Positions 9,607 to 25,159 of a DNA stretch of 64,000 bases are shown in pieces. Each line of letters starts with the position of its first letter. Positions within the stretch are counted from its first letter, which is position 1. This DNA is from a bacterium (lineage in GTDB: Bacteria > Vulcanimicrobiota > Vulcanimicrobiia > Vulcanimicrobiales > Vulcanimicrobiaceae), in the NCBI GenBank assembly GCA_021832345.1, contig JAKBKY010000001.1, forward strand, positions 210,385 to 274,384, given 5' to 3'. The notes beneath the pieces were generated by a model. The model was given only the letters and a program-made list of their open reading frames with translations. It searched no databases and had not been told where the DNA came from. A program made the translations under genes and the position numbers.

Positions 9607-10934
9607 GCACCAACCCTCAAGGCAGCAGCGAATTCCTTCGCGCGATTCTCTTTGAACTGCGGTTCTTGGCCGCGATCATCTTCGCTTGCTAGTGACGCGA
9701 TCGCCGGTGGTTCTCCATGGCGCTGCTGAATAAGGTCGCCAGCGAACGCCCGAGCGAGTATTGCGCTTCGCAGGCGGTGCGACCTCTGGAGAGCATTTTG
9801 AATTAGCTTGTTGGCGCTGTCCCGCAGGGACAAAAGCTCACTGTACTTAGACAGGGCGCGCTGCTGATCTCTCAAAGACGGCACATTTAACATCAACTCC
9901 GAAAACTTTGCTTTACTGAGAATCGGCAATGTAGTGCTCGACGCGCGCTCATGGATCTTGCGCTGGAAATCAAGTCCCGAAACTACGGTCAGCAGATAGT
10001 CCGGAAGTATCACCGATGGATCAGGAACGATTGCGTTGATCTGCTGATTGATGGCACAGTCGATCTCGCTTACGCTGGCCTTGCCGATAGTCGCGCCAAT
10101 GCAGGTTACAAGCACACTGCGTGCGGGGACAGATCGCGCGGCCTTTGTTGCGAATTGCGAAAGCGAACGTCGCCCGGACCGGACGGCGCCGGCATGTTGC
10201 AAATCACCTGGGGTTATAAAAGGTATCGGCCCTTCCCAGTACCTTGCCTCCTTGGTTGATGGGGTGTTGCCGGTGACAATGTCCCCGATCTCGGAGATCT
10301 TTCGCTGGATTCCCGGAGCGCTGGCAACGGCGGTTGCGATAGCTTCGGCGAGTCTCCCGGTATGACGCAGCACGCTCGCGAGCGATGCTTCGGCGGCGTC
10401 GAGGCGGGAGAATTGTTCCTCGATGACTTCGACGATCCGCTGCTGCTCGGCTATTGGGGGGGCTGGGATCGTCAGGCTCCCGAGATTCTTCCTTGAAATT
10501 CGCTTTCGCGTGGTTCCAGATTGTAGGGCCGCTATTTTGGCGCGCATTGGCGGCGCATTGAGGAACCACATCAACCAACTGGGATTTGCGTTGTCGGGAT
10601 GGGGGCGCATGACGCATACATCGACCACCGTGACTGCCTGTCGCGGATCGCCTGGGAACATGCAGGCCCGTCCCAGCGGGTCCGGCATCCGTGCGACAAG
10701 CACATCGCCTTTCTCGAGATACGTGCAGCCAAGGCGCTTCGCATTTTCGCGTGTCATGCTGCGGTTGGACCGATTTCGCCAGCAGCCTTCCCCGATGTCA
10801 GCGAGTTGGGTTAGTCGTACCTCTCCATCCTCGTCCTGGTCTTTTGTCTCAACCCAGTCACCGTCGATGAATAGGCCTCCATCCATGAGGCGCGCGAGGG
10901 TCGTCTCTGTCCAGCCCCCTGGTAATTCGCTCAT
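9603..10934 (-). CDS. hsdS: Type I restriction specificity subunit (HsdS)
   Basis: I start at ATG 10932-10934 (MSELPGGWTETTLARL), which overlaps the hsdR stop in ATGA; the longer open frame upstream is antisense to nothing useful and lacks HsdS similarity. The 443-aa protein has two target-recognition domains, each followed by a long helix: IPAPPIAEQQRIVEVIEEQF (about residue 155-175) and the C-terminal LRDQQRALSKYSELLSLRDS. The second domain begins KISEIGDIVTGNTPSTKEARY. It dictates the bipartite DNA target. Confidence 0.9.
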   Translation of the reverse strand: MSELPGGWTETTLARLMDGGLFIDGDWVETKDQDEDGEVRLTQLADIGEGCWRNRSNRSMTRENAKRLGCTYLEKGDVLVARMPDPLGRACMFPGDPRQAVTVVDVCVMRPHPDNANPSWLMWFLNAPPMRAKIAALQSGTTRKRISRKNLGSLTIPAPPIAEQQRIVEVIEEQFSRLDAAEASLASVLRHTGRLAEAIATAVASAPGIQRKISEIGDIVTGNTPSTKEARYWEGPIPFITPGDLQHAGAVRSGRRSLSQFATKAARSVPARSVLVTCIGATIGKASVSEIDCAINQQINAIVPDPSVILPDYLLTVVSGLDFQRKIHERASSTTLPILSKAKFSELMLNVPSLRDQQRALSKYSELLSLRDSANKLIQNALQRSHRLRSAILARAFAGDLIQQRHGEPPAIASLASEDDRGQEPQFKENRAKEFAAALRVGA

Positions 10935-13747
10935 GCAGCGAGAACCTCGTTCAATTCGTCGATCAACGAATTCAACTGATCGCCGAAAACTTCTGACGCC
11001 TTGCCAAGACCGCCGTGTTGGGAAAACGGTGTGTATTGGAAGTCGTCGGGCGATATTGCGAGGCTCGCCGCAATATGATCGCGGATACGTTCGAGCCACT
11101 GCGTTTGTTCTGGGGTAAAAGTGCGGCCAGCCTGTTTCTGCTGGAGCATCCATCCGGCAAAGCGTTCGTTGACACGCTCTGGGAACGGGACCAGTTGCTC
11201 GTCCTGATTTAGCGCGAAGCGCACGATTTGGACGATATCGGCCAGCACGCGGGGGCCGGAGCCCCGAACTTTCGACCTATCGAGGGTTTCGTACGCGGCC
11301 CACAAGTTTTCCGGAGTCCAGTGCTGCGGCGTTCGGCTGATAGCGCTGGCCAGCTCTTTCACTTCTTTCCACGTCAGGCGATGCTTATACAGGCGACTGT
11401 AGAGTATCTGCAACGCGGTGATTTCGTCCTTGTGCTCGTCGATGTATGCGCGGAATGATTCGACGGTCTTGCTGGCACGATCGGCGGCATCAACGGAATA
11501 ATCCGCCCTGAGCAGCGTGTCCGCCGAGGTTTCGTCGATCACTTGATCGTAGCTGCGCCGCAGCTCGACCAGCTTCTCCCTAAAGGCGGGATTGTCGGCA
11601 AGTGCCCTAACCGCTTCATCAATCAGCCGCCCCGCAACGGCGTCGCATGCGTCGGGACTGGGCTGTTCCATGCCCGTCTCTCGCTGCGCTGCCTCCAACT
11701 GCTTGTCCGGATCAAGCGCGTCGACGATCGTCTCGGCCAATTCCTTGAGTGGAACGCCCGCAACCGCTTCCAGCTCCTCTCGGTCTTGCTTCGATAGCCT
11801 CAAATTGAGGCGTGCGATACGCGAGGCGATAGAAGACACCAGGCTGCGATCGCGAGATCCGAGCGCGAGGTTGTGGAGGAGTTTTTCGAAGCCCAGCTTC
11901 GGGCTCCGATCCATCGGAGTCGTGTCATGAAGGTCGGTCTCTGTCGCGCCGACGGCGTCGACGATCACAAAGCGATCCTTTACCTTCGCGTCCGGTGTCA
12001 CGCCTTGCAGGTCCGTCGGATTGATGACGCGCACGCCACGACCCTTCATCTGCTCGAAGAACTGCCGCGAGCGGACCATACGCATGAAGAACACGCACTC
12101 GATCGGCTTCACGTCCGTTCCGGTCGCGATCATGTCGACGGTTACCGCGATTCGGGGATTGTAGCTGTTACGAAAGTCCTGGAGGAGCTGCTCGGCCGTT
12201 TGACCTTGCGAGCCAGACTTATAGGTGATCTTGGCGGCGAACTCATTGCCCTTACCGAACTCCTCGCGCACGATTTGGACGATGTCGTCGGCGTGGCTGT
12301 CGTCCTTGGCGAAGATCAAAGTCTTCGGGACGTGCGTGCGCCCCTCGAAGAGCAGCGGAAGGCTGTCGCGGAAAGCTCGCACGATAGTTCGGATCTGGTC
12401 TTTGGCGACAACCTTGCGGTCAAGCTCCTTGGCATCGTAAACGATGTCATCGTCCAGTTGTTCGAAACGCTTTTCGCGCGTCTGTCGGTCTCGAAACGTC
12501 GTCACCAAGCCGGCATCAATCTTTGACCCCTTGGCGCTGATCTCAGTCGAGATGCGGTACACGTCGAAGTCGACGTTTACGTTGTCTGCCACGGCGCGCT
12601 CGTGGTTGTATTCCATCACCAGGTTTTGATTGAAAAATCCGAGCGTCTGCTTTCCGGGCGTTGCCGTCAACCCGATGATGAACGCGTCGAAATACTCCAG
12701 CACTTGCCGCCACAGGCCATAGATAGAACGATGGCACTCATCGACGATGATAACGTCGAATGTTTCGATGGGAACCGCCGGGTTGTATGCGACCTCGACC
12801 GGCTTCGCGGGCTGCAAATCGTAGGCCGATTCTTCATCGAGTTCTTCCGGCAGGTCGGGTTCGCCCTTGAGAATCGAATAGAGGCGCTGAATCGTGGAGA
12901 TGACGACGCGCGAAACGCCGTCGATGCGATTCGAACCGAGACGCTGGACATTGTAGAGTTCGGTAAACTTACGGCCGTCGTCGGGCGTCGAGAACGCCTG
13001 AAACTCCTTGAGCGTCTGTCGCCCCAGATTCGCGCGATCGACAAGGAAGAGAATCCGGCGTGCTCCGGCATGCTTGATGAGCCTATAGGCGACATTGGCG
13101 GCGGTAAACGTCTTTCCAGAACCGGTAGCCATCTGGATGAGAGCGCGCGGTCGGCCGTGCTTGAGCGATTCTTCCAAATTGCGAATCGCCTCGGCTTGTG
13201 CAGGCCACAGGCCCTGTTCGTTGACCTCCGGGAGATCGCGAAGACGAGCGCGCAAGGTCGTATGTTCGGCCCCGATCTCTGCGAGCGTCTCCGGACGATA
13301 AAACGTAAACACTTGGCGGCTCGCGGGGTCTGCATCGAAGCCGTTCGTGAAGCGCGTCTCTACGCCGGTGGATTCGAACGCAAACGGCAACGGCTTCACG
13401 AGCGCGGAGATCCCCTCCGGCAAACCCGTGGTGTATTTTGCCGATTGCCACTCGACGCCGGTGAGGGTCGAGCCGGCTTTCTTTGCCTCGATCACTCCGG
13501 CGGCTCTGCGGTTGACAAATAGAAGATAGTCGGCGGCATCGTAACCGCCGTTCATTTTGAACTCACGAACCGCGACGCCAACGCCGGCGCCGAGATTCAG
13601 TTTCTTGTAGTCCTGGACAATCCACCCGCACGCGCCCAGTTGGCGATCGATCTCCATGCGCGCCCGGGCTTCAGGGTCCAGGTAATCCTCAACGGCCAAA
13701 TGCCAACCTCGCCAGCAACGGAGCCACCGCAAGGTGTCTTGCGACAC
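10931..13747 (-). CDS. hsdR: Type I restriction endonuclease motor subunit (HsdR)
   Basis: A 938-aa protein with a GTG start. The N-terminal nuclease domain contains YDAADYLLFVNRRAAGVIEA followed by KK (D..ExK, residues about 68-91). The SF2 motor has Walker A ATGSGKTFTAANV near residue 207, DECH near 334 and GLTATP after it; a helical C-terminal domain binds the methylase. First gene of the leftward operon hsdR-hsdS-hsdM, with 4-bp overlaps at both junctions. The upstream region shares a 77-bp divergent gap with the AbiEi-like gene. All motifs look intact. Confidence 0.95.
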   Translation of the reverse strand: MSQDTLRWLRCWRGWHLAVEDYLDPEARARMEIDRQLGACGWIVQDYKKLNLGAGVGVAVREFKMNGGYDAADYLLFVNRRAAGVIEAKKAGSTLTGVEWQSAKYTTGLPEGISALVKPLPFAFESTGVETRFTNGFDADPASRQVFTFYRPETLAEIGAEHTTLRARLRDLPEVNEQGLWPAQAEAIRNLEESLKHGRPRALIQMATGSGKTFTAANVAYRLIKHAGARRILFLVDRANLGRQTLKEFQAFSTPDDGRKFTELYNVQRLGSNRIDGVSRVVISTIQRLYSILKGEPDLPEELDEESAYDLQPAKPVEVAYNPAVPIETFDVIIVDECHRSIYGLWRQVLEYFDAFIIGLTATPGKQTLGFFNQNLVMEYNHERAVADNVNVDFDVYRISTEISAKGSKIDAGLVTTFRDRQTREKRFEQLDDDIVYDAKELDRKVVAKDQIRTIVRAFRDSLPLLFEGRTHVPKTLIFAKDDSHADDIVQIVREEFGKGNEFAAKITYKSGSQGQTAEQLLQDFRNSYNPRIAVTVDMIATGTDVKPIECVFFMRMVRSRQFFEQMKGRGVRVINPTDLQGVTPDAKVKDRFVIVDAVGATETDLHDTTPMDRSPKLGFEKLLHNLALGSRDRSLVSSIASRIARLNLRLSKQDREELEAVAGVPLKELAETIVDALDPDKQLEAAQRETGMEQPSPDACDAVAGRLIDEAVRALADNPAFREKLVELRRSYDQVIDETSADTLLRADYSVDAADRASKTVESFRAYIDEHKDEITALQILYSRLYKHRLTWKEVKELASAISRTPQHWTPENLWAAYETLDRSKVRGSGPRVLADIVQIVRFALNQDEQLVPFPERVNERFAGWMLQQKQAGRTFTPEQTQWLERIRDHIAASLAISPDDFQYTPFSQHGGLGKASEVFGDQLNSLIDELNEVLAA

Positions 13748-13797
13748 TATACTGCGCCGAGCTGACTCAAGCCTAGAGCAGACCGTTATCTACGAAT

Positions 13798-13818
13798 AGT
13801 ATAGCAATATGCTATACT
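13798..13818. promoter_or_regulatory. Perfect palindromic operator upstream of the AbiEi-like gene
   Basis: AGTATAGCA (13798-13806) and its exact reverse complement (13810-13818) are separated by 3 bp. The right half includes TATACT, a good -10 box only 7 bp before the ATG at 13825, so the transcript would be nearly leaderless. The site lies in the divergent gap with hsdR and could control both directions. AbiEi proteins bind inverted repeats in their own promoters. Confidence 0.6.
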
Positions 13819-13824
13819 ATCTGC

Positions 13825-14271
13825 ATGGCCAAGATCGAGGACGCGCTTAGAGACCTTGCTGCCGAGCATGAGGGTCTTTTTACGGCAAAAGAGGCGGAGG
13901 CGGCAGGCGTGGCCCGCACCCTGGTGGTTCAGCTCGCCCATCGAGGCCGGCTGGATCGCGTGGCTCAGGGGCTGTACCGATTCCCAAGCTGGCCAACAAC
14001 TGGCCTCCAGCAGTACCACGAGGCCGTTCTCTGGCCTCGGGCGCATCGCGAGCTGGCATACGCTTTAGTCTCCCACGACTCCGCACTGGAACTCTATAAT
14101 CTGACGCACCTCAATCCTGGCGTCGTCCACTACGGCCCGAACGGCGGCCACGGCCGCGTTCTTGTTGGGCGGACGCACCTCGTGGGACGTCGAATCCACA
14201 AGACATGGCTGACCTGCGCTATACCGTCGTCCTCGAGCCCGGGGATCCCGACGAGGGCGGATTCGTGGTGA
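13825..14271 (+). CDS. AbiEi-like winged-helix antitoxin, truncated
   Basis: The first 110 residues match the AbiEi family: EHEGLFTAKEAEAAGVARTL (wing-helix), LAHRGRLDRVAQGLYRFPSW, then YHEAVLWPRAHRELAYALVS followed by HDSAL. After HLNPGVVHYGPNG the family normally continues for another 60-90 residues; here the frame runs into unrelated sequence overlapping the hicB start. No AbiEii nucleotidyltransferase toxin follows. I read it as an antitoxin or regulator that lost its C-terminus when HicBA became joined to it. DNA binding may be retained. Confidence 0.6.
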   Translation: MAKIEDALRDLAAEHEGLFTAKEAEAAGVARTLVVQLAHRGRLDRVAQGLYRFPSWPTTGLQQYHEAVLWPRAHRELAYALVSHDSALELYNLTHLNPGVVHYGPNGGHGRVLVGRTHLVGRRIHKTWLTCAIPSSSSPGIPTRADSW

Positions 14272-14453
14272 GCGTTCCCGCGCTGCCGGAGGCGCACACC
14301 CAGGGCAACACGGTCGAAGACGCCCTCGCGAACGCCCGCGAAGTGATCGAGCTTTGCATCCTATCACGTCTCGATCACGGCGAGGACATCCCGCCGGGCG
14401 ACGTGGGCGCGACTCGAGTAGAAAGCGTCGCGGTCTCGGTCCCGGCCGCCTAA
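14205..14453 (+). CDS. hicB: HicB-family antitoxin
   Basis: An 82-aa protein of the HicB/UPF0150 type: LRYTVVLEPGDPDEGGFVVS followed by VPALPEAHTQGNTVEDALAN forms the partial RNase-H-like fold, then a helix AREVIELCILSRLDHGEDIP. It lacks a long C-terminal DNA-binding domain. hicA follows by 11 bp. The order hicB-hicA is the reverse of the E. coli arrangement but common elsewhere. It is expected to bind and inactivate HicA. Confidence 0.85.
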   Translation: MADLRYTVVLEPGDPDEGGFVVSVPALPEAHTQGNTVEDALANAREVIELCILSRLDHGEDIPPGDVGATRVESVAVSVPAA

Positions 14454-14464
14454 CGGCCCCCTGA

Positions 14465-14692
14465 TTGAGCACGAGACTTCCCGCCCTGGACGGAGCCGCA
14501 GTTGTGCGCGCGCTAAAGCGCGCCGGCTTTGTCGTGGATCGCATCAGCGGCTCGCACCATATCATGCGCCACGCCGACGGTCGCAAGAGTTCAATCCCGG
14601 TTCACGCCGGCAAGACCCTCCGGCGAGGGCTCTTGGCATCGATTCTCAAGGACGTCTGTCTCAGCATCGAAGAACTTCGCCAGCTCTTGTAG
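14465..14692 (+). CDS. hicA: HicA-family mRNA interferase toxin
   Basis: A 75-aa dsRBD-like protein with a TTG start. It shows ALDGAAVVRALKRAGFVVDR and then ISGSHHIMRHADGRKSSIPV followed by H, with the catalytic histidine in the G-S-H-H motif, and ends LLASILKDVCLSIEELRQLL. The family degrades mRNA and tmRNA independently of translation. It pairs with the HicB upstream and is the last gene before att copy C. Confidence 0.85.
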   Translation: MSTRLPALDGAAVVRALKRAGFVVDRISGSHHIMRHADGRKSSIPVHAGKTLRRGLLASILKDVCLSIEELRQLL

Positions 14693-14726
14693 CGCTGAGA
14701 TCCTGAAAGTTGCCCGCAACCGTACA

Positions 14727-14749
14727 TGGTAGCGCCAACGGGAATCGAA
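14727..14749. repeat. att copy C: 3' end of tRNA-Glu
   Basis: Exact 23-nt copy of 25085-25107, same orientation, 35 bp after the hicA stop. It separates blocks 3 and 2. No other tRNA part is present. Confidence 0.85.
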
Positions 14750-14761
14750 CTCTCGAAGTGG

Positions 14762-14850
14762 GGTCCCGGCAGGTCCCGCCGACTACCGGAAAGTCCCGTC
14801 CTGTAAGGGTTTTCGCGTTTTTCAATCCCGGTCTGTCCCCTCGAATCCCG
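14762..14850. repeat. Iterated GTCCCG/ATCCCG motifs right of att copy C
   Basis: GGTCCCG at 14762 and 14772, AGTCCCG at 14792, then ATCCCGG at 14825 and 14845 follow the att core. The stretch GTAAGG.TTTT and ATCCCG has a counterpart right of copy D (3853-3886). Such repeats next to a core suggest integrase arm-type or excisionase sites of a family different from the GGCAACCG element. Confidence 0.35.
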
Positions 14851-14987
14851 GCCTTTTTCGCGAAATCCGTTAGACGGCCGTTAGAGGGGCAGCCGCCAGC
14901 CCCGTATGGGTCGGCCAGAGGCGACTGCTGCCCCGGCGCGCGCGCTGTTGGCTCCAAGCAAGCATCGCGGCTGCCGATACCCTGACA

Positions 14988-17900
14988 GTGACGCAGATCG
15001 ACCTGGGCGTTTCGACCGCCACCACGACCGCCAACCTCCTGCAATACTGGCGCGATTGCCTCATCGACGATGCGATGTCGGGCATAACTTTCGAGCGAGT
15101 GCGACAGTCACCAACGATCGACTTTCAATCGATCACCAAGGGCCGCCTTGGCGCGCAAACTACCGACAGGATACGAGCGCTAGCGTCGAGCGGTGAGAAG
15201 CCGACGACGGAGCGATCAGACACAATCGAGATCGCTGTCGGTTTGGGGCGCATTTCGGCAAAATATCAGAACGGTGCGCGGCGCTCGCACGTGGATGCCG
15301 TAGTCCCACTGTGGATACCGGCATTGTTGTGCGACGGGGGCATACTTCGTCCGCAGGAGCAACGGCATCCCTTCATTACGCGAACGGTGCTGGAACCATC
15401 GCCTACGAGCATCGCAGTCGGAACACTTGACGACGCCGATGCCTACTACGAGACACATGTTCCTGAGCAACGGTGGAGCGAAAACTGGGCGGCTTGCATT
15501 CAATGGGCGCTCGAATTATGGTCGAGCGTCGTGGGCTCCGATTTTTCCACGTACGCTTCTGAGGACTTTCATTTCGAGCGGACGGCATACGTACTTCCTA
15601 ATGAAGTGGCAATCGACGTTACGAAACTTGTCGAAGTCCTCGACTTGGCGCGCGAACGCGCAGAGCAAGGCGGGGGCCTTGCGATACTGCAATCCGTCGT
15701 TCGGTCCCAGGCGTCCACCGCGCACGACACGGCCAGCGGCGTTCGCCATGGCGGACACTACGGCCCGCACCCATTAACGGACGATCAGCGTGTGGCACTC
15801 GAACACGTTTTGCGCACGCCGCATGGAGCATTGCAGGCGGTTAATGGGCCTCCCGGCACCGGAAAGACTACGCTTCTACGTTCAGTCATAGCCAGCGCGA
15901 TGGTCGAGGCGATCGCATCCACACAGGATTTGTTTTCCGTAGAACCGCCGATTATCGTCGTCACTTCGACGAATAACAATGCCGTAACAAATGTGTTGAA
16001 CTCGTTCGCCGATGTTGAAGACCAAACGCCCTTCGGGAAGCGCTGGATCGACGATGTTGGCGGGTACGGGGCATTTCTCGCCGGCAAAGACGCGGCGAAA
16101 CGCGCGGAGCGCTCGAATATCAATTACCCGACGCTGCTCTTTCAGAACGGCGGCACGATACGAGGCGTGTTCGACGGCATAGAGGTAACCGCTGCCATCG
16201 CGACATTCCTGAAGAATTATCTGGATGCAACGGGCAAGAGCGCTGAAGACTTGGAGTCAGCGGTGTCCGACCTCCATGCAAAAACATTGTCCCTCCGAGC
16301 AAAGGCCGCCTACGTCGCCCAACAATTGGAGGAGTATCGGCGCATCGCTGATCCCAGCGAGAGCGCCGCACGATCGACTTTGGGTGAGCGGTTTATTCAA
16401 ACCCTGGAGCCCTTGCGAGAAAAACGCGTTGCGGCGGAACGCGAGCTGAGCGTCATACGGGAGGAATGTAGCAGGCAGCGCCAGCGCATCGAGCTCGGAC
16501 TTGATGCGCTCCAGCCGATCTGGTGGGAAGCGATATTCGGATTTTTGGATCCCGTGCGACGACATCGTTACAGAAGGTTCGAAAAAGCGTACGGCGTTGG
16601 CACACCTCCTTACACGAATGACCTATCCGCTATCGAAGACGGCATGCGGTCCCGTCGATCCGCCTTTGACATCAGCGAATCCCAGGCTGCGGCCGTGCAT
16701 ACGGGAGCCGCGCAGGCGTACTCAATCGCGGAACGAGAGTGCGAGCGGGAACGCGATCAATTCGAAACAAGCTGCCGACGCTGGCATGACGTCGTTCGAC
16801 AGCTAGAGGCGGACCTGCGCACTTCGCTTGACCCGGCGGACTGGGGGGCCGTGCAACGCGCGTTGGATATCGCATACCGCACTGACGCATTTCGCGTAGC
16901 GATGCGCTTTTGGGAAGGCCGATGGCTATTGCAGATGCGTAGCGAGAAGGATGACATTTGGAGGCGGAACAGCGCGACTCGGGTTCGTCACAGGCATCGC
17001 TGTATTGCAAAACTTCACCCATTTGCCGCCGTCACGTTACACTCGCTTCCGTGGCGATTCAACTACTTCATCAGCGGCACAGCCCCGGGTCGCGAATTAG
17101 AAGATGGGCATGCGGAGCCGCTGTTCGAGGGCATCGATCTACTAATCATCGATGAGTCGGGTCAGGTAGCGCCACACATCGGCGCCATCGGTCTCGCGCT
17201 TGCGAAAAAGGCGATGATCGTCGGTGACGTCTACCAACTCGAACCCATCGTTAGTCTTGACGAGCCGCTGTCACTGGCGAACGCTCGAAACCGCATCTCT
17301 GCGAGGCCCGACGTGGCCGATGATCTGGGGCGCCGCGGTGTGCTCGTGCACGACAACGGGCCAAGCCTGATGCATTTAGCGCAAGGCGCAACGGCATACA
17401 CCCTTTCGAACGCAAGCGTGCCGGGATCGTTCCTGCGCACGCATTACCGCTGCGTTCCGGAAATCATACGGTACTGCGACGAGCTAATCTACGGCGGCCT
17501 CATTCCAAAACGCCAGTCACTCGAAAACCCGCTATTCCCTGCGATGGGCTACGCGCACGTGCGTGGTACGAGTGCGAAGTCCGGTTCGAGCCGGGTAAAC
17601 GAGACGGAAGCCCGCCTTATTGCCAATTTTGCCGCCAAAAACAAGGATCGAATCCTTGACCACTACGTTAGCGATCCGGCGATTGCGGGGATTACGACCA
17701 CCGAGGCCTTGAGTCGCCTGCTCGCGATCGTAACGCCGTACGCGGCGCAAGCGAACGAAATTCGTCGGCAGCTGCGAGGAGTGTTACCGAATGACGCACC
17801 GATTACCGTCGGCACCGCCTTTGCGATGCAAGGCGCCGAGGCGCGCATCATCCTGTATTCTAACGTCTTGAGCCCACGCGATCCCGTCGGCTTCGTAAAC

Positions 17901-18515
17901 CGCAAGAAGAACCTACTCAATGTCGCCGTGTCCCGCGCAAAGGATCACTTCCTGGTCTTCGGTGACATATCCACGATTGCGACGCAACCCAAGGGTTCGG
18001 CGCTGCGTCTGCTGTCCGAACATCTGCTTCGCCGCGACGAAAATGCCCTAGGCGAGGTTCCGGTGTCCTTCTACGGTGAAGGCGCAGACGTTGTTCACGT
18101 GATGGAACATGAGCGGCATCGAGACATCTTCCAATACGCGTGCGAGCACGCATCGAAATGGCTGCTCGTGGTGAGCCCATTTCTAGGCCAGACGGCGCTG
18201 GCCGAAGAAATCGTGAGCCCCATAGCACAAGCCGTGGAACGCGGCGTAGTCGTTGACATAATTAGTGATTCTAAATTTGCTAAGAATCCAGCGCTAGCCG
18301 ACCCGCTTCGGGCAGCCGGCGCACATTTTCAACTTGTAGACCAAATACATGCAAAGACACTCGCGATGGACGAGGCCTTACTGTATGAGGGCTCCTATAA
18401 TTGGCTGAGTGCCGTAGCCGAGGGTGAGTACCACCGAATGGAAAGCGGCTGGCTTGTGCGGGGTCCTGCCGCGTCGCGAGCTATCGCTTCGGTGCGCGCG
18501 TATTTCGACTTTTAA
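14988..18515 (+). CDS. SF1 helicase fused to PLD nuclease, Mokosh type II-like
   Basis: A 1175-aa protein with a GTG start. Helicase: Walker A GPPGTGKTT near residues 286-294, a helical insertion of about 300 residues (coiled coil near 410-480), Walker B LLIIDES near 720, the motif GDVYQLEP, then FLRTHYRC and VGTAFAMQGAEA and the VAVSRAK motif of COG1112/UPF1-like enzymes. The C-terminal phospholipase-D domain has H1121-A-K1123 with D1128 and GSYNW. A single protein joining these two parts matches MkoC of the Mokosh type II anti-phage system. Only one HKD motif is seen, so it should dimerise. First gene of block 2. Confidence 0.8.
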   Translation: MTQIDLGVSTATTTANLLQYWRDCLIDDAMSGITFERVRQSPTIDFQSITKGRLGAQTTDRIRALASSGEKPTTERSDTIEIAVGLGRISAKYQNGARRSHVDAVVPLWIPALLCDGGILRPQEQRHPFITRTVLEPSPTSIAVGTLDDADAYYETHVPEQRWSENWAACIQWALELWSSVVGSDFSTYASEDFHFERTAYVLPNEVAIDVTKLVEVLDLARERAEQGGGLAILQSVVRSQASTAHDTASGVRHGGHYGPHPLTDDQRVALEHVLRTPHGALQAVNGPPGTGKTTLLRSVIASAMVEAIASTQDLFSVEPPIIVVTSTNNNAVTNVLNSFADVEDQTPFGKRWIDDVGGYGAFLAGKDAAKRAERSNINYPTLLFQNGGTIRGVFDGIEVTAAIATFLKNYLDATGKSAEDLESAVSDLHAKTLSLRAKAAYVAQQLEEYRRIADPSESAARSTLGERFIQTLEPLREKRVAAERELSVIREECSRQRQRIELGLDALQPIWWEAIFGFLDPVRRHRYRRFEKAYGVGTPPYTNDLSAIEDGMRSRRSAFDISESQAAAVHTGAAQAYSIAERECERERDQFETSCRRWHDVVRQLEADLRTSLDPADWGAVQRALDIAYRTDAFRVAMRFWEGRWLLQMRSEKDDIWRRNSATRVRHRHRCIAKLHPFAAVTLHSLPWRFNYFISGTAPGRELEDGHAEPLFEGIDLLIIDESGQVAPHIGAIGLALAKKAMIVGDVYQLEPIVSLDEPLSLANARNRISARPDVADDLGRRGVLVHDNGPSLMHLAQGATAYTLSNASVPGSFLRTHYRCVPEIIRYCDELIYGGLIPKRQSLENPLFPAMGYAHVRGTSAKSGSSRVNETEARLIANFAAKNKDRILDHYVSDPAIAGITTTEALSRLLAIVTPYAAQANEIRRQLRGVLPNDAPITVGTAFAMQGAEARIILYSNVLSPRDPVGFVNRKKNLLNVAVSRAKDHFLVFGDISTIATQPKGSALRLLSEHLLRRDENALGEVPVSFYGEGADVVHVMEHERHRDIFQYACEHASKWLLVVSPFLGQTALAEEIVSPIAQAVERGVVVDIISDSKFAKNPALADPLRAAGAHFQLVDQIHAKTLAMDEALLYEGSYNWLSAVAEGEYHRMESGWLVRGPAASRAIASVRAYFDF

Positions 18516-18525
18516 TTTACGTTCC

Positions 18526-19080
18526 TTAAATACCGAGATGAAATGAAATGCCGCGCTGGAACTGAGGCGCCACGATACCGACGATCCGAACAATGTCTGC
18601 GACTGGAAGGCCGCGTCGGTCGCGTTCCAAGGTTCTCAGGACTTCACACATACGCTCGTGATCGACACTGAGAAGATCGGAGAGAAATTCGTCGACTGAG
18701 CACAGTCTGATTTCATACGGATCGCATGCCACTTTCGGGAAATGGCGGAGATTCTCAGTAACGATGGTTTCGGCATTACCGCGAATTGCCGCGGCGAGCA
18801 CATGGCGGTCACCCTCATGGTTTGTCATCGTGGCGATGAGCGGTTCATATCCCGAAACGCGGGATTCCGGAAAGGCGCGATTCATCTCGCCGCGCAAATG
18901 CGCAGTCTGTTCGCGCGTTAGCCCGCGATTCTCGATGAGATTTCGGTCCAGTTCATCGAGAACGTCGGCGCTCCACAACGGATAATAGAGACCGCTTTCT
19001 GCGGCCGTCAACAATACGTCTCGGAGCGTCTGCGGAAAAAGCACGCAGGCGTCGATAAAAACTCGAAACCGCGCGCTCAT
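18526..19080 (-). CDS. PIN-domain toxin, VapC-like
   Basis: A 184-aa PIN protein. Conserved acids: D10 in RVFIDACVLFP, E in SADVLDELDRNLIE, then D in GDRHVLAAAIRGNAETIVTE, which is the typical third and fourth acidic region, followed by NLRHFP. The ATG overlaps the antitoxin stop by 4 bp (19077-19080). The extra 50 residues after the PIN core (EFLSDLLSVDHERMCEVLRT) are helical. Convergent with the helicase-PLD gene, 10 bp apart. Predicted endoribonuclease. Confidence 0.85.
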   Translation of the reverse strand: MSARFRVFIDACVLFPQTLRDVLLTAAESGLYYPLWSADVLDELDRNLIENRGLTREQTAHLRGEMNRAFPESRVSGYEPLIATMTNHEGDRHVLAAAIRGNAETIVTENLRHFPKVACDPYEIRLCSVDEFLSDLLSVDHERMCEVLRTLERDRRGLPVADIVRIVGIVAPQFQRGISFHLGI

Positions 19081-19592
19081 TCACCGCCGCGTCGATCGGC
19101 ATCGCGAAGTCTTGCGAGATGCTGCATCGCCTCTTCATCCTGGTCGTACAAACCGTACTGCTCGCTCAAGTCGATAAGGTTACGTAGATGCTGACGCCGC
19201 TCTCGCCGGCGAGCAACATCGAAGGTCATGACATCTGCAAGAGCAACGCGACGGTGCCGGCCGACGCGCTCGAATGGAATCTTGCCGTCGTCCAGCAATC
19301 GCACGAGATACGTTCGTGAAACGTTCAGAAAGTCGGCAGCTTCCTGGGATGTTAGCATTCGATCGGCGGGCAGAACGCTAATGCCCCCACCGTGCGCGAG
19401 CATCTGGGCGGCGCGAACGAGGACTTCATAGAGAGCACGCGGCAGTTGCAGAGGCTCATGATCGGGAGCCACAAGATAACCGGTCGCTCCGGGCCCCGAT
19501 CGGGCGATTGCCTCCCCAAGGCTCCGGATGGACTCTTGCTCCCTCGCGTCCGGGGCCGCTACTATCTGACCCATATCAAGAACTGTATTCAT
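19077..19592 (-). CDS. Excisionase-type HTH antitoxin partner of the PIN toxin
   Basis: A 171-aa protein. The N-terminal 80 residues match the partial gene at 1-254. Residues about 90-135 contain DRMLTSQEAADFLNVSRTYL and VRLLDDGKIPFERVGRHRRV, an MerR/excisionase-like helix-turn-helix (HTH_17). The C-terminal tail (RRRERRQHLRNLIDLSEQYG) probably wraps the toxin. It precedes the PIN gene with a 4-bp overlap. Expected to repress the promoter at 19626-19655. Confidence 0.85.
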   Translation of the reverse strand: MNTVLDMGQIVAAPDAREQESIRSLGEAIARSGPGATGYLVAPDHEPLQLPRALYEVLVRAAQMLAHGGGISVLPADRMLTSQEAADFLNVSRTYLVRLLDDGKIPFERVGRHRRVALADVMTFDVARRRERRQHLRNLIDLSEQYGLYDQDEEAMQHLARLRDADRRGGE

Positions 19593-19625
19593 AACTAGTC
19601 ACCGTAAACGACACTTGTAGTTTCG

Positions 19626-19655
19626 ATTATAGCGAATATTTCGAGCCTTTGTCCA
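19626..19655 (-). promoter_or_regulatory. Promoter of the HTH/PIN operon
   Basis: Minus strand: TGGACA (19650-19655) and a consensus TATAAT (19626-19631) with an 18-bp spacer. The spacer contains AAATATTCG, the near-palindrome also present beside the -10 of the paralogous gene at 293-302, a candidate operator. The start codon is 34 bp downstream. Confidence 0.7.
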
Positions 19656-19745
19656 GAGCGACCCGGCGAGCACCGGCAAAGGAATGAGGCGGCCGCTCAG
19701 GCGAACAAGTGTTCTGTAGATTTATTCCGATAGCTGGCCTCAACC

Positions 19746-20339
19746 ATGCGGAGGTACAAAACCGTGGATGATCTCGAAGGCGAGCGTGCAAAAATACGCG
19801 GTGATCAAAATCAGGTTTTTCAAGCTCGTGACATCGTCGACTCCAGCGTGCAGATCGTGCACAATAGCGAGGCGTCCGACACCATCATTCCCACAGACAT
19901 GAGCTATCGCCTCGATACCAGGCTTACCACAATGCAGATGAGATTGGGGTCGCTCGCGTCCTTTGTTTTGGGAGCGCTCGCTTTTTTTTCAAACTTCGCT
20001 TCGTTAGCCAGCTTTGCTGGCTATACGCTGCCGCTTGCATCATTCGCTAAGGCGCACTCAGTGATCGCGCCACTCGGGGTCGTGTTTCTCATGCTTGGAA
20101 TGCTTCTTTGGTTCTTCAGCCGTGAAATCGAAGACCAGGGATTTCTTCCGATCGGGCGGCTCAAGTTCCGACTAAACTCACGCACCGGGCACATCGAGAT
20201 TGTCGAGCTTCGCGGGAAGTGCCCAAAGTGCGGCGCACCGATAACTTATGGTACCGAGAAGCACACACCGGGCTTATTTGCGACATGCAGGAGAAATCCG
20301 CATCAGCACAAGTGGCTGTTCGACCATACGACGATATAG
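19746..20339 (+). CDS. Two-helix membrane protein with C-terminal zinc-ribbon-like motif
   Basis: A 197-aa protein of unknown function. The N-terminal 50 residues are polar (RGDQNQVFQARDIVDSSVQI). Two hydrophobic segments follow at about 65-100 (LGSLASFVLGALAFFSNFAS) and 105-125 (VIAPLGVVFLMLGMLLWFF). The cytosolic tail carries CPKCGAPI and, 24 residues on, a lone C with HQHKW, a possible Cys3His zinc site. It is divergent from the PIN operon and is the last gene before att copy B. It could be an effector or sensor of the block-2 defence cargo; this is only context. Confidence 0.65.
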   Translation: MRRYKTVDDLEGERAKIRGDQNQVFQARDIVDSSVQIVHNSEASDTIIPTDMSYRLDTRLTTMQMRLGSLASFVLGALAFFSNFASLASFAGYTLPLASFAKAHSVIAPLGVVFLMLGMLLWFFSREIEDQGFLPIGRLKFRLNSRTGHIEIVELRGKCPKCGAPITYGTEKHTPGLFATCRRNPHQHKWLFDHTTI

Positions 20340-20347
20340 GCCAGCCG

Positions 20348-20367
20348 TATCCGCATAAATGCGGATA
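20348..20367 (+). terminator. Perfect hairpin after the membrane protein gene
   Basis: TATCCGCAT and its exact reverse complement are separated by AA. It lies 8 bp after the stop codon of the preceding gene and 13 bp before att copy B. There is no U-tract, so it may be a weak terminator or a recombination-linked structure; hairpins also precede att copies A and D. Confidence 0.45.
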
Positions 20368-20379
20368 GTAAGAGATTCG

Positions 20380-20402
20380 TGGTAGCGCTAACGGGAATCG
20401 AA
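20380..20402. repeat. att copy B: variant 3' end of tRNA-Glu
   Basis: 22 of 23 nt match 25085-25107. The single change turns the weak U6-G67 pair of the local tRNA acceptor stem into U6-A67, so this copy would still make a functional tRNA end. It was probably carried in from a host with that tRNA variant. It marks the left end of block 1. Confidence 0.8.
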
Positions 20403-20497
20403 TCCGTCCCGAGAGGGTTGCAGAGAGTCGCTAGCGGCCAAGCAAGGTAATAGAATCAAGGCTTTCCGGCTTGCGATGGTCGCGGAGAGTTACTCGT

Positions 20498-20540
20498 GGT
20501 TGCCCTCGACGGCAACCGAATGGCAACCGTTTGGCAACCG
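20498..20540. repeat. Arm-type repeats GGCAACCG, left end of block 1
   Basis: GGCAACCG at 20511, 20522 and 20533, exactly 11 bp apart, plus an inverted GGTTGCC at 20498-20504 facing the first copy across 6 bp. The same octamer, again with 11-bp spacing, lies at the integrase end (25020, 25031). These are likely integrase arm sites. Confidence 0.7.
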
Positions 20541-20789
20541 TCGGGCGTCGACAATTGCACCGCGATGATTCGTGGCCGAATGGCGGCCCGCCGGCGCGTC
20601 TTGCGACGTTGCGTGCCCCCCAAGTCGTTCGATCGCGTTTGCGCGCCCTAGGTGGCGACGTAAGCCAAAGGAGCGCCTACCCTCGATGACTCTCATGCAC
20701 GCGCACGGGGGTTTTCGCGCAGGATTCCCCGGATTTTACCGAGCATCCGACGCGCGCGCGCGTAACGCGCGAAACGAAAGGCTGACACC

Positions 20790-20963
20790 TTGGAGACGAT
20801 CGCGATCCGGCTGCGAGCCGAAAAAGAAACCCCCGGCACCCAGCGGTACGCAGCCGACGACCCGAACGCGCCGGTGCGGTTCATCTACTTGAAAAAGGTG
20901 GCCTTCACCGGCAGCGACGTGCCGAAGGTAATCACGGTGACGATCGCCGCGGCCGCGAATTAA
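20790..20963 (+). CDS. Small element protein, 57 aa
   Basis: A TTG-start frame preceded by GAAAGG at a suitable distance (20776-20781). The product begins METIAIRLRAEKETPGTQRY and ends VTVTIAAAAN; in between is VRFIYLKKVAFTGSDVPKVI. This beta-rich pattern (I.LRLEKET.G..RY...., IYL.K) recurs in small conserved proteins of actinobacterial phages and integrative elements, as far as I recall. It is convergent with the RepA-like operon. Function unknown; codon pattern and ribosome site support it. Confidence 0.6.
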   Translation: METIAIRLRAEKETPGTQRYAADDPNAPVRFIYLKKVAFTGSDVPKVITVTIAAAAN

Positions 20964-21025
20964 ACCGAGGAAACCGTCTTGCTCGGCGCCGCCGAGACCC
21001 CCGGGCCACGCCTTCCCTCTGCCGC

Positions 21026-21157
21026 TCATGCTGCGGTTCTCTTGGCCGAACGGCGCACCGGCCGCACTTGGCGGATCGTGAAGCCCGCGCGAGCGAGCAG
21101 CGACGCCGCCGCAACGATGGCCCGTGCTTCCTGGAGCACTCGCTCCGCAGGGCTCAT
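21026..21157 (-). CDS. Small protein coupled to the RepA-like gene, 43 aa
   Basis: The ATG at 21155-21157 overlaps the stop of the preceding gene (ATGA). The product begins MSPAERVLQEARAIVAAASL and ends with a basic tail (VRRSAKRTAA). It is a short helix plus a basic tail; no known family. The next frame again starts in ATGA at 21029 but is antisense to the 57-aa gene and is not called. Confidence 0.45.
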   Translation of the reverse strand: MSPAERVLQEARAIVAAASLLARAGFTIRQVRPVRRSAKRTAA

Positions 21158-22449
21158 AGGAGCCGCACTTGGCTCGGCTGGACGCGCTCGACGATACGCT
21201 CCTTCGCGTAATTGAACAGCGCCTCGGCAGTCTCTTCGGTCTCATCGACGACCTCATGCCCGCTCTCGTCCGGGTCCCCAGGTTTATCAGGTTTATCAGG
21301 TTCTCCAGTAGGGAAAACCTGAGAATCCAGGGGCTCTTTGATAAACCAATAGCCCTTCGCGGGGTATCCCCGATTCTCGGTGGTGACGCCAGCCTTCTTG
21401 CGCGCGCGATACAACGTGGGCTGCGAATGACCAGCCCTCTTGCCCGCCTCGCACACATCTGAAGCCCGGTGCTCGTCCGCGCCGAGGTAATCGGAAAGCC
21501 AATCTGCCGCCGCGTCGATCTTCAACTTTTCACCCTCGTCGGGACGGTTCGTCAACTCATCGGCCGTGATAATCGGCGGAACCGCTTCCCACTCGACGCA
21601 CGCGATCGTTGTCGCCTCGCCGTCGTCATCGGTCACCCCGACGGGGACAAGCCGATATGCCATCGTTGCCGAACGATCTTCGGCGAGATTGGCTTTAGAG
21701 ATGGCTACGACGAAGAGGCCGGGATGCGCTTCATCGTCAGGATGCGGTGCCACGGCGAGCTCCGAGCGACTGACATTGCGCGCCTCGATGCTACCGAGGC
21801 CGCGTGCGCTCGCCAAACCCGCCGCTTTGCAGAAATGGCGGATCGCGACGATGGTCGCGCCGGTGTCATGCGCGACGGTCGAAAGTGGGCGACAGACCTT
21901 GCGCATGTCTTGAGGTTTCGCCGAGTTGAGATCATCGGCAAAGTGATTGAGGAATGCGTCGATCATCACAAAGTCGAACCCCCCCTCTTCGATCGCCCGA
22001 CGCAGCGTTTCTGCGTGGGTCGGGAACACGGCAAACTCCTGCTCGTCGCCGATTGATTCCAGAAGCCGGATGTTATCGAAATTGGCGCGGGCGACGTCGA
22101 GCCGAGCGCGCAGTAGGCCGTGCCGATCCTCCTCGGCAAGAATGAGACAGCGTAGCGGCTTCTCATGGCGAAGCCCCGTCGGCATCGGCCGACCCGCGCT
22201 CGCCCGCGCGATAAGGTCGAGCACGAAGGTGGTCTTCCCGATTCCGCCGTCACCGTTCACCAGCGTCAGCTCGGCGCGCGGAAGCGTGTTTTGCTCAAAC
22301 CAACGCACTCGCTCAAAGCGGACGGTGCGAAGATCGAGAAGATTTGCGCGCGGTACGCCATCTGACTGCGTGCGCGACCCCGCCGCCGTTGCCGGAGCGG
22401 CCGCAAGCCTCCTCAGCGCGTTATCTACCGCATCGTCCTGGCGCTTCAT
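21154..22449 (-). CDS. RepA-like AAA ATPase / replicative helicase
   Basis: A 431-aa RecA-fold ATPase of the AAA_25/RepA type. Residues 40-75 contain FEQNTLPRAELTLVNGDGGI followed by GKTT (Walker A 66-74), then RCLILAEED, FDFVMIDAFLNHF (Walker B) and GATIVAIRHFCK, as in plasmid and phage RepA/RSF1010-like helicases. The C-terminal part has a winged-helix-like region (SDVCEAGKRAGHSQPTLYRA) and an acidic, repeat-rich tail (PDKPDKPGDPDE). Likely drives replication of the excised element. Overlaps both neighbours by 4 bp. Confidence 0.8.
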   Translation of the reverse strand: MKRQDDAVDNALRRLAAAPATAAGSRTQSDGVPRANLLDLRTVRFERVRWFEQNTLPRAELTLVNGDGGIGKTTFVLDLIARASAGRPMPTGLRHEKPLRCLILAEEDRHGLLRARLDVARANFDNIRLLESIGDEQEFAVFPTHAETLRRAIEEGGFDFVMIDAFLNHFADDLNSAKPQDMRKVCRPLSTVAHDTGATIVAIRHFCKAAGLASARGLGSIEARNVSRSELAVAPHPDDEAHPGLFVVAISKANLAEDRSATMAYRLVPVGVTDDDGEATTIACVEWEAVPPIITADELTNRPDEGEKLKIDAAADWLSDYLGADEHRASDVCEAGKRAGHSQPTLYRARKKAGVTTENRGYPAKGYWFIKEPLDSQVFPTGEPDKPDKPGDPDESGHEVVDETEETAEALFNYAKERIVERVQPSQVRLL

Positions 22450-22787
22450 TCGACCGCCGCTCCGTGCAGCCGGGCGCGCGCGAGTAGCCCCGCCGCTCCG
22501 CGATCGCGCCGCCGCCGCTCGTCGGCGACCTCGGGAAGCGCGCGCAAGAACTCCGCGTCGAAGCCGGGTTCCGCGACGTCGAGCGGATCGGGCCGTTCGC
22601 CCGCGTCCGCGCGCCGGCAGGCGTCCGCGACGTCCAGCGGATCGTCGCCGGCTTCGAGGAGCAGGTGGTATGCGCGCAGTCGCCGTTCGTACTCCTCCGG
22701 ATCGTCGAGGACAAGCCGCGAAAGCTCAAGCTCGGCGGGACTAGGCACGATCTTTCCCCGCCGCGACTTGTCGCGAGATATACTCAT
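22446..22787 (-). CDS. Hypothetical protein between xis-like and RepA-like genes
   Basis: A 113-aa charged, helical protein (ELSRLVLDDPEEYERRLRAY, then LLEAGDDPLDVADACRRADA), no recognised domain. Its 3' end overlaps the RepA-like ATG by 4 bp. The ATG at 22787 lies well inside the preceding gene; a GTG near 22750, at the end of that gene, is an equally good start and would give about 100 aa. Probably a small regulator or accessory protein of the element. Confidence 0.6.
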   Translation of the reverse strand: MSISRDKSRRGKIVPSPAELELSRLVLDDPEEYERRLRAYHLLLEAGDDPLDVADACRRADAGERPDPLDVAEPGFDAEFLRALPEVADERRRRDRGAAGLLARARLHGAAVE

Positions 22788-22950
22788 CCAGCGCCGCGCG
22801 GGGGAAGAGCACGCGGCGGTGGACGTTCACGGCCGCGATCTCGCCCTGCGCCCTCAAGAGTTTGAGCGTCGAACGGGAAATGCCGCCGAGGTAGTTCTGC
22901 GCCGCGTCAAAGTCGAGTAGAGCCGAGGTGGGGGGTTCAAAAGTGTCCAT
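22741..22950 (-). CDS. xis: Excisionase-like HTH protein
   Basis: A 69-aa protein with the HTH_17 fold of excisionases: LLDFDAAQNYLGGISRSTLK followed by LLRAQGEIAAVNVHRRVLFP and RAALDEYI. Position and size fit a recombination directionality factor, and it is divergent from the repressor-integrase operon. First gene of the leftward replication operon. It could equally be a small transcription factor; the combination with an integrase favours excisionase. Confidence 0.7.
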   Translation of the reverse strand: MDTFEPPTSALLDFDAAQNYLGGISRSTLKLLRAQGEIAAVNVHRRVLFPRAALDEYISRQVAAGKDRA

Positions 22951-22961
22951 GGCTCAGAGGC

Positions 22962-23017: not shown

Positions 23018-23855
23018 CGCCTGGAGTGACACCGTTCGCGCTATCCTTGATGCGGCTAACGTGCGGCAAACGGAACTTGCCGAGCGCCTGGATATGGAAC
23101 TGCCCACCATCAACCGCTATGTTCACGGAGAACGACGCCCCGATCCTAAGACGGTCCTGAGAATCAATCACGCCCTCGCGCTGCTCACGGGCCATCCGAG
23201 GGTCGAGGACTTTCTCAACTTCGAGGCGGCCGCGTGCGGCCTGCTCCAAGAAGAGCGTTTCGAGGCGTTAATCAAAGGCGCTGCGTGGTGCCTTCGTTGG
23301 TACGGCGATTTTTTTAAACCGGGCGCCAATGAGCGCCTTCGCGAGAGCATGAACGCGCTCGACAAGGCGGAGAAGCGCAAGCTCCTTCTTGGCCTCAACC
23401 GTGCGCTGCGGCGCGTTGTCGTTTCCGCGTTGTTGCCCTCTTCGACCCCCGTCGGCTTCCGTGCCGTCTTGGAGGCGTTCGAGGCACGCGGTATCGACCT
23501 TAAGGAACTCGTTTCCGAAAAATGCGTCGCGCAGCTTGCGTGGGAGCGTTTCGTGCAGACCGTACAGCACGAGCTCGCCGCCCAAAACCCGCGCACTCCG
23601 GCGCGCGAGCGTCTTGCCGCAACGCGGCGCATCGTCGAGGCCCTCGCGGACCCCGACGTTCTCGCGGCCATTGAGGTGTCGACGGACGGCGCAGCCGAGG
23701 GCCTGCGCGAAGTGAAGACCACAGTGAACGGCGCGCAAGTCAGCCGCTTCTTCGGCGATAGCCGAGCGGCGTGGGCGCCCTTCACGCCGCCGACGCGGTA
23801 TCTTATCAAGGTCAACAACGCGCCTTCGGTTCGCCGAAAGGGAGGCCATTCGTGA
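23007..23855 (+). CDS. XRE-type repressor of the integrative element
   Basis: A 282-aa protein with a GTG start. The N-terminal 60 residues form a helix-turn-helix: VRAILDAANVRQTELAERLD followed by MELPTINRYVHGERRPDPKT. The remaining 220 residues are helical and unrecognised (ALDKAEKRKLLLGLNRALRR). The stop overlaps the integrase GTG (GTGA), so the two are co-translated. Expected role: keep excisionase and replication genes silent and set integrase level. There is no LexA-like peptidase motif, so control would not be SOS cleavage. Confidence 0.75.
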   Translation: MLITAWSDTVRAILDAANVRQTELAERLDMELPTINRYVHGERRPDPKTVLRINHALALLTGHPRVEDFLNFEAAACGLLQEERFEALIKGAAWCLRWYGDFFKPGANERLRESMNALDKAEKRKLLLGLNRALRRVVVSALLPSSTPVGFRAVLEAFEARGIDLKELVSEKCVAQLAWERFVQTVQHELAAQNPRTPARERLAATRRIVEALADPDVLAAIEVSTDGAAEGLREVKTTVNGAQVSRFFGDSRAAWAPFTPPTRYLIKVNNAPSVRRKGGHS

Positions 23856-25003
23856 GTGTTTATAAGCGCCGGAGCGGTAAATGGGCCGTTCTTGTCGACC
23901 TCGATCCAACCCCACTAGGTGGCCGTCAGCGGAAGAGCATCGGGACCTATCGCACCCGTAAGGAGGCCGAGCGCGCGGAACGTCAAGCGATCGAGGCACG
24001 AGACCGCGGCATCGACCTCTCGCCGAGCACGGTATCGCTCTCCGCTGTGCTCGAACGGTATTGTGCCGATTGCGGGGCGCGGAACCTCGCAACCAAGACG
24101 GTGGAAAGATACCGCGAGATTGCGACGCAGTATATTGCGCCGCATATCGGTTCGCTTGCGCTTGCGCGGCTGCGGCCTGCGCACGTTAGCGCTTGGTTAC
24201 ATACCCTCGCCGAGCGCGGCGGGCACGACGGTCGCGCGCTCTCGGCCAAAACGGTGCGGCATGGTTTCGCCCTCCTCAACGCCGCGCTCCGATTCGCGCA
24301 GCGCCTCGACCTCGTAGGCCGGAATGTCTGCGAATCGGTACGCCCACCGAAGGTTGCCAAGTCGCCTGCGGACGCGATCTCGTCCGAGGATCTTGCGGAA
24401 CTGCTTGCCTCTGCGAATGGAACGCGGTGGAGTGCGTTTGTAACGCTTGCGCTTGCCACCGGGGCACGTCGCGGCGAACTGTGCGCGCTGGATTGGGCCG
24501 ACGTTGACTTCGAGCGCGGCATGATCGCTATTAGAAAGAGTCTGTCGCAAACGCGAACAGGCGGCCTGGCGCTCAAGAGCACCAAGACGGGTGCGACCCG
24601 GCTGCTACCGCTCTCGCCGGTCGCGATCGACGCGCTACGGCGGCAGCGCATCATGCAGGCCGAGGAGCGGCTGCGCGCCGGAAGCGCCTACGAGAGAGGT
24701 GAGGGCGTATTCGCCGACGAGCTTGGGCGGCGCATATCGCCGATGAGTGCGACTAACGCCTTCGCTCGGCTGGCGAAGAAGGCCGGAATCAAGACGACGC
24801 GGCTTCACGATGCGCGGCATAGCGCGGCAACGGCGCTTCTCACCGCAGGCGTTGACGTTCGGACGGTCGGCGGCATCCTCGGGCACGCGGCAGCGAGCAC
24901 GACCCTGAACATCTACGGGCACCTTATCGAGGGTGGCCAGCGCCGCGGGCTCGACGCCCTGGGTGCGACCCTCGAACGGGCCGCCGGAACCAAGAAAGGG
25001 TGA
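23852..25003 (+). CDS. int: Tyrosine-family site-specific integrase
   Basis: 383 aa from the GTG at 23852, chosen because GGAGG lies 6 bp upstream and it overlaps the repressor stop; an upstream in-frame ATG (23771) is inside the repressor gene. The N-terminal arm-binding domain starts VSVYKRRSGKWAVLVDLDPT. A core-binding SAM-like domain spans about 58-150. Catalytic residues: R206 (TGARRGEL), K245, H319 and R322 (HDARH), H345 (LGHA) and Y355 (NIYGHL). All are intact. The gene points at tRNA-Glu, 81 bp away, whose 3' end it most likely uses. Confidence 0.95.
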   Translation: MSVYKRRSGKWAVLVDLDPTPLGGRQRKSIGTYRTRKEAERAERQAIEARDRGIDLSPSTVSLSAVLERYCADCGARNLATKTVERYREIATQYIAPHIGSLALARLRPAHVSAWLHTLAERGGHDGRALSAKTVRHGFALLNAALRFAQRLDLVGRNVCESVRPPKVAKSPADAISSEDLAELLASANGTRWSAFVTLALATGARRGELCALDWADVDFERGMIAIRKSLSQTRTGGLALKSTKTGATRLLPLSPVAIDALRRQRIMQAEERLRAGSAYERGEGVFADELGRRISPMSATNAFARLAKKAGIKTTRLHDARHSAATALLTAGVDVRTVGGILGHAAASTTLNIYGHLIEGGQRRGLDALGATLERAAGTKKG

Positions 25004-25019
25004 CTTTTTTTCAGCGCAC

Positions 25020-25041: not shown

Positions 25042-25055
25042 CCCCCTATGGCATC

Positions 25056-25081: not shown

Positions 25082-25084
25082 CGG

Positions 25085-25107
25085 TGGTAGCGCCAACGGG
25101 AATCGAA
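25085..25107. repeat. att copy A: attachment core inside tRNA-Glu
   Basis: The last 23 nt of the intact tRNA-Glu gene (CCA, 3' acceptor strand, 3' part of the T-arm). The same sequence is found at 3777 and 14727 exactly and at 20380 with one change. Confidence 0.85.
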
Positions 25108-25159
25108 CCCGTCTTTGCCGCGTGAAAGGCGGCTGTCCTAACCGATAGACGATAGCGCC
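25085..25159 (-). tRNA. tRNA-Glu(TTC)
   Basis: 75 nt with encoded CCA. The acceptor stem pairs GGCGCTA with TGGCGCT (two G-U pairs). The D-arm has TATCGGTTAGGACA, the anticodon loop reads CTTTCAC (anticodon TTC), and the T-loop is GTTCGATTC. Transcribed leftwards after eno and the CAT tRNA. It is the insertion target of the island. Confidence 0.95.

Follow-up and report, generated by a model that had tools for sequence, protein, structure and literature searches.

Mokosh type II is a single-gene system in which a helicase is joined to a phospholipase D (PLD) nuclease. The definition applied below was drawn from PADLOC and the literature (PMC10952713). Mokosh has been said to degrade viral transcripts (PMC11291487), and a 2026 review gives its mechanism as unknown (PMC12926258). 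Among single-HKD nucleases, NucT is a dimeric endonuclease that strongly prefers single strands, cuts both DNA and RNA, and is inactive once the HKD histidine is altered (PMC5714352).

Here, we analysed a window of 64,000 nucleotides (the whole stretch of DNA under study) and conclude that one of its genes very probably encodes a Mokosh type II anti-phage protein, with PLD cleavage fed by the helicase, in what is best read as the degraded remains of an integrative element at a tRNA-Glu island. The gene, hereafter mkoC, has the following features:

14988..18515, + strand: mkoC-like gene, 1175 aa, GTG start (PADLOC, Pfam, AlphaFold)
15846..15872, + strand: Walker A, GPPGTGKTT, residues 287-295 (alignment of 39 sequences)
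16185..16967, + strand: long helical (coiled-coil-like) insertion, residues about 400-660, motif Ia to II (AlphaFold model)
17151..17165, + strand: Walker B / motif II, DESGQ, residues 722-726 (alignment)
18084..18512, + strand: PLD nuclease domain, NucT-like, residues 1033-1175 (VIA-align to NucT 6ehi)
18348..18401, + strand: catalytic HxK(x)4D(x)6GSxN motif, residues 1121-1138 (alignment)

The product consists, in this order, of an N-terminal domain, an SF1B (Upf1-like) helicase and a C-terminal single-HKD PLD nuclease, so that the fusion of helicase and nuclease on one open reading frame, proposed in an earlier note on this DNA, is borne out by Pfam, motifs and fold alike. The PADLOC profile of MkoC (PDLC03924) matches the protein at 791.3 bits (4.6e-238) over profile positions 5-1130 of 1136. 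Pfam recognizes AAA_11, AAA_12 and AAA_30 in the helicase core and PLDc_2 at residues 1055-1162 (29.1 bits; cut-off, 27). Conservation was assessed by aligning 39 sequences with a PLD domain, i.e., the mkoC product and 38 homologues. Within Walker A, G287-K293 and T295 are invariant and T294 nearly so; D722, E723, G725 and Q726 of motif II are invariant. Walker A and B and motifs III, V and VI, which are required of the COG1112-like SF1 helicase of Mokosh type II, are intact and mostly invariant among homologues (K293, D722-E723, GDxxQ 746-750, QGAE 948-951 and SRAK 982-985). The nuclease motif, spelled H1121-A-K1123-TLAM-D1128-EALLYE-G1135-S1136-Y-N1138, fits HxK(x)4D(x)6GSxN exactly, with the histidine and lysine at the very positions claimed previously; H1121, K1123, G1135, S1136 and N1138 never vary in the alignment, and D1128 hardly does. 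A scan that may not fit the host phylum detected no promoter-like site directly upstream of mkoC.

The AlphaFold model, built on aligned homologues, has a mean pLDDT of 84.9 and a pTM of 0.78. Its Foldseek matches were compared using VIA-align, the whole model testing mainly residues 10-1029 plus the PLD domain. The structural check suggested in the earlier note thus identified an Upf1/IGHMBP2-type SF1B helicase followed by a NucT-type nuclease: IGHMBP2 (Z 22.8), Upf1 (Z ~22), SETX (Z 21.8), Sen1 (Z 21.8) and Dna2 (Z 20.6) match roughly residues 10-1030, whereas residues 1033-1175 superimpose on Helicobacter pylori NucT (6ehi) with a Z of 17.0 and an rmsd of 2.3 over 135 aligned residues. With Upf1, IGHMBP2 and SETX, the mkoC product shares the motifs and the fold of the helicase (Z about 22 over some 470 aligned residues), but adds the long helical insertion and the C-terminal nuclease; with NucT, Nuc and Zucchini, it shares the single-HKD fold and the exact catalytic signature, but its PLD domain is fused to a helicase. 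The insertion, described previously as a long coiled coil between the Walker motifs, is real in the model, with helices at residues 400-415, 422-454, 469-508, 546-610 and 619-653 between motif Ia and Walker B. It is not peculiar to this protein: the spacing from motif Ia to motif II is 386 aa compared with a median of 358 aa in 67 open reading frames, i.e., the insertion is family-wide, and we discarded it as a special trait.

The gene resides in an island of tandem att-bounded blocks at tRNA-Glu, with defence genes aboard. The features on which the following argument draws are:

5060-6199: IrrE/RmrA-like protein, block 3777-14749
8122-9606: HsdM, block 3777-14749
9603-11153: HsdS, block 3777-14749
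10931-13747: HsdR, block 3777-14749
13825-14271: AbiEi-like gene, block 3777-14749
14205-14692: HicAB genes, block 3777-14749
14727..14749, + strand: att core at the left edge of the mkoC block, identical to the tRNA-Glu 3' end
14727..14886, no strand: conserved 160-bp left end of an integrative-element family, without assigned gene, 75-88% copies elsewhere
14867..14885, + strand: arm-type direct-repeat pair CCGTTAGACGGCCGTTAGA, sole copy in the window, 0 expected
18526..19080, - strand: PIN-domain protein (Pfam PIN_3, 32.1 bits)
19077..19592, - strand: HTH_17 DNA-binding protein (Pfam HTH_17, 45 bits)
19746..20339, + strand: 197-aa hypothetical protein, hydrophobic stretches and a CxxC motif, read from the sequence
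20380..20402, + strand: att core shared by the mkoC block (right edge) and the integrase block (left edge), differing from the tRNA-Glu end at 1 position
20511..20540, + strand: three GGCAACCG arm-like repeats, 11-bp spacing, integrase block (repeat scan)
23771..25003, + strand: tyrosine integrase, block 20380-25107 (Pfam Phage_integrase, 104 bits)
25085..25159, - strand: tRNA-Glu (TTC), integration target (ARAGORN), 3' end matching the att cores

The 23-bp att core, of the type TGGTAGCG(C/T)CAACGGGAATCGAA, is a copy of the tRNA-Glu 3' end and occurs in the window at 3777, 14727 and 20380, in addition to the tRNA-Glu 3' end itself at 25085, with a fifth copy 2.1 kb left of the window. By chance, 0.00 copies are expected (100 shuffles, up to 3 mismatches), and none of the listed genomes was matched by the reversed control pattern. 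In the bacterial family of the host, att copies are commonly found in tandem at tRNA-Glu. The outer, leftmost block carries two unknown genes, encoding 517 and 418 aa, and an HTH gene; block 3777-14749, a type I restriction system, an HTH-peptidase (IrrE-like) protein, and AbiEi-like and HicAB genes, placing restriction and toxin-antitoxin genes next to mkoC; and block 20380-25107 is a compact 4.7-kb element with the tyrosine integrase, an AAA_25 (RepA-like) protein, and excisionase-like and repressor-like HTH regulators.

Between the att repeats at 14727 and 20380, the mkoC block (14727-20402) contains mkoC, a PIN-HTH pair and the 197-aa protein, for which Pfam, PADLOC and NCBIfam yielded no match. 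The PIN protein, which reaches 110 bits with the NCBIfam RSP_2648 PIN family, under the cut-off of 170, is probably the toxin of a toxin-antitoxin pair, and the HTH_17 protein, with homologues in the far-left block (L132) and in a related genome (G036, L148), is probably its antitoxin. As the earlier note had it, the block is bounded by 23-bp tRNA-Glu copies, and mkoC is its first gene, directly after the att core at 14727. The further claim, that the system moves as a unit, is not supported, given that the block has neither an integrase nor the right-hand arm repeat. Copies of the 160-bp left end, 75-88% identical, lie at or near the att core in many genomes of the bacterial family; in these relatives, the 160-bp end sits opposite an end with the att core, and an integrase was detected beside that core in G029, G032, G058 and G036. 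One comparison is with a tRNA-Glu integrative element of the same family (G036:C6:82518-110699), which shares the att core, the 160-bp left end (88%) and the arm repeat. There, the arm-repeat core GTTAGACGGCCGTTAGA is found at both ends (L148, 261-277, left; L149, 8203-8219, integrase-side right). By contrast, the mkoC block keeps only the left copy of CCGTTAGACGGCCGTTAGA and has no integrase, which intact relatives carry beside the right-hand att. No same-genus genome was present among the genomes searched. In one relative (G029, L131), a 1653-aa PDC-S37/MkoA-like helicase lies directly beside a 160-bp left end.

The mkoC block has probably lost the enzyme for moving by itself, and its autonomous movement is unlikely because the integrase is absent, the arm repeat is left-only and the nearest integrase belongs to the next block. 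Transfer in trans is possible, and one alternative, which is compatible with MkoC function, is that the block is an active non-autonomous unit moved by the integrase of another element. Such mobilization would account for the att cores on either side and for the two blocks in the host genome that have a common 160-bp left end (the second copy 86% identical; G000:C3:208323; L132:7924-8082) and a common HTH gene but different cargo. It would have to operate, however, with the right arm repeat and integrase missing, and the arm-like repeats of the resident integrase, including two further GGCAACCG copies at 25020-25038, flank block 20380-25107 alone. We therefore regard this alternative as worth retaining, yet clearly the less probable one, and favour a degenerate integrative-element remnant that would have retained its left end while its integrase and right arm were lost.

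The mkoC product is only 20-31% identical to the 38 aligned PLD-bearing homologues (maximum, about 31%). In the tree of 92 helicase cores, it forms a long branch near the base (length 2.23), the fork to its nearest group being left open, whereas C-terminal type clusters in that tree (9 changes versus 33 in shuffles). A related-locus scan with the single protein as query gave nothing, and an alignment-based query recovered the relatives. Among 149 genomes of the host phylum, 2 reach 1e-60 or better with MkoC, the second one without PLD, so that a PLD-bearing MkoC is found in the mkoC host alone. Many bacteria have MkoC relatives on their plasmids, and some viral contigs carry them too. This sporadic occurrence and the association with plasmids and viral contigs are as expected for a horizontally moving defence gene. 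On a 9.6-kb Salmonella plasmid (OX345039.1; L016:2398-5703), the MkoC gene makes up about a third of the record; its open reading frame stops before the HKD motif, and tblastn, which covers the protein in two pieces as far as residue 1159, points to a frameshift or an error in the sequencing. Other relatives, about 990 aa long, have the helicase only and end near residue 1013 of the mkoC product (L037, L044, L050, L058, L085 and about 30 other loci); such proteins are common in Bacteroidota contigs.

The nearest solved folds are those of the cellular helicases IGHMBP2, Upf1, Sen1 and Dna2, and the common helicase-only relatives have no constant neighbour that could be a split nuclease; both facts would suit a housekeeping RNA- or DNA-processing helicase-nuclease of the Upf1/Dna2 kind with no role in defence. 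Nevertheless, we consider such a function improbable: the PLD form is present in 1 of 149 phylum genomes, in a tRNA-Glu island with restriction and toxin-antitoxin genes nearby, and elsewhere on plasmids, a distribution unlike that of housekeeping genes. The score for the IGHMBP2 family TIGR00376 (NCBIfam) is 60 bits, below the curated cut-off of 348.9.

The protein is a Mokosh type II (MkoC) member, intact but unusually divergent. It has in common with PDLC03924 the domain order, the full-length profile match, the catalytic residues and the absence of an adjacent MkoA- or MkoB-like partner; it differs from other Mokosh type II proteins in its divergence, its deep branch and its occurrence in a phylum sample otherwise without PLD-bearing MkoC. 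The earlier assignment to MkoC was upheld by the profile search it had called for, in which MkoA, at 105 bits, was second-best, 686 bits behind, and no other helicase-nuclease family was favoured. The mkoC block contains no MkoA- or MkoB-like neighbour, MkoB having been sought among neighbours in the block, and the genome contains one MkoC-type match. We do not regard the MkoC score as sufficient proof in itself: the MkoC model gives 964-1036 bits to four scanned helicase-only relatives without PLD (about 970-990 aa), more than to the mkoC product, and 520 bits to a Toprim fusion variant. Because PLD-less relatives score higher, the PLD tail has to be checked, and it is the intact PLD tail that separates the mkoC product from its helicase-only and Toprim relatives. 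That the protein might instead be an MkoA-like helicase of Mokosh type I or a PLD protein related to DISARM DrmC can be dismissed as highly improbable, the weak cross-matches (MkoA, 105 bits; DrmC, about 15-22 bits) being outweighed by the far better MkoC score, by the absence of kinase and NERD domains, which mark type I, from the Pfam matches, by scanned neighbours without MkoA, MkoB or DISARM protein matches, and by a DrmC score of 21.6 bits, far under the curated NCBIfam cut-off of 133.

The most likely mode of action can be pictured from the parts of the protein. The N-terminal domain and the Upf1-like helicase would bind a single strand of phage-derived nucleic acid, free or exposed in a flap or R-loop, and the helicase would translocate along the bound strand, driven by ATP. 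Two copies of the protein would build the active site from their PLD domains, as in single-HKD nucleases, and cut the strand fed by the helicase, which may protect the host against phage. The target is more likely to be DNA than RNA, by analogy, since sister proteins carry this helicase module joined to a topoisomerase-IA module. Given how divergent the sequence is (identity no higher than about 31%; branch length 2.23), the target could also differ from the target of characterised MkoC.

These sister proteins, MkoC-like helicase-Toprim/topoisomerase IA fusions, were encountered at four loci: L130:9481-16210 (G029:C21, same bacterial family as the mkoC host), L100:2030-8465 (Pseudomonas aegrilactucae), L111:5702-13284 (a viral contig) and L075:6452-13041 (Azonexus). 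They have the same helicase core as the mkoC product but, in place of the PLD tail, a topoisomerase-IA-derived module. In G029, the helicase runs on into the Toprim/topoisomerase-IA region, and the next open reading frame holds more of the topoisomerase-IA fold, with GRPSTYAS; a catalytic-tyrosine motif was found in neither. The peptide SVTYPRTDG lies near the N-terminus of the subsequent protein (327 aa), where an ExK-like motif is also present; the gene after it is Imm49-like, with a sub-threshold match (E 3.6e-4). At the other loci, a YPRT peptide likewise lies near the start of a downstream protein. The topoisomerase fold generally continues in the next open reading frame, in L100 within the same one, and in L075 the YPRT peptide begins the continuation frame itself. 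On the remaining three loci, YPRT sits on a separate nuclease-toxin-like protein, of the ExK type in L130 and L100 and HNH in L111, with immunity-like genes beside it in L130 and, weakly, in L111, where the next gene is a weak SMI1/KNR4 match. The pattern [ST]YPR[TS] occurs in 9 of 5666 open reading frames of the loci examined, helicase-Toprim loci included. In literature of partial coverage, we found no paper on this arrangement. Judging from the sequences, the helicase-Toprim/YPRT loci are possibly a covalent toxin-loading system; if so, the split topoisomerase IA and the YPRT (TYPRTDG) toxin-like protein could link a toxin by a covalent bond to the DNA of an invader. Tentatively, and by the same analogy, the MkoC helicase might be a general nucleic-acid-loading module with exchangeable effectors, PLD among them, in which case MkoC would act on DNA.

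Mokosh is widely annotated while its mechanism is still given as unknown (PMC12926258). Automated Mokosh type II calls may be inflated by helicase-only proteins, and the PLD tail should be checked in each case. Finally, a divergent member and an effector-swapped sister together narrow the hypotheses for the family: the helicase is shared and the nuclease exchangeable, suggesting that both have a loading step in common.
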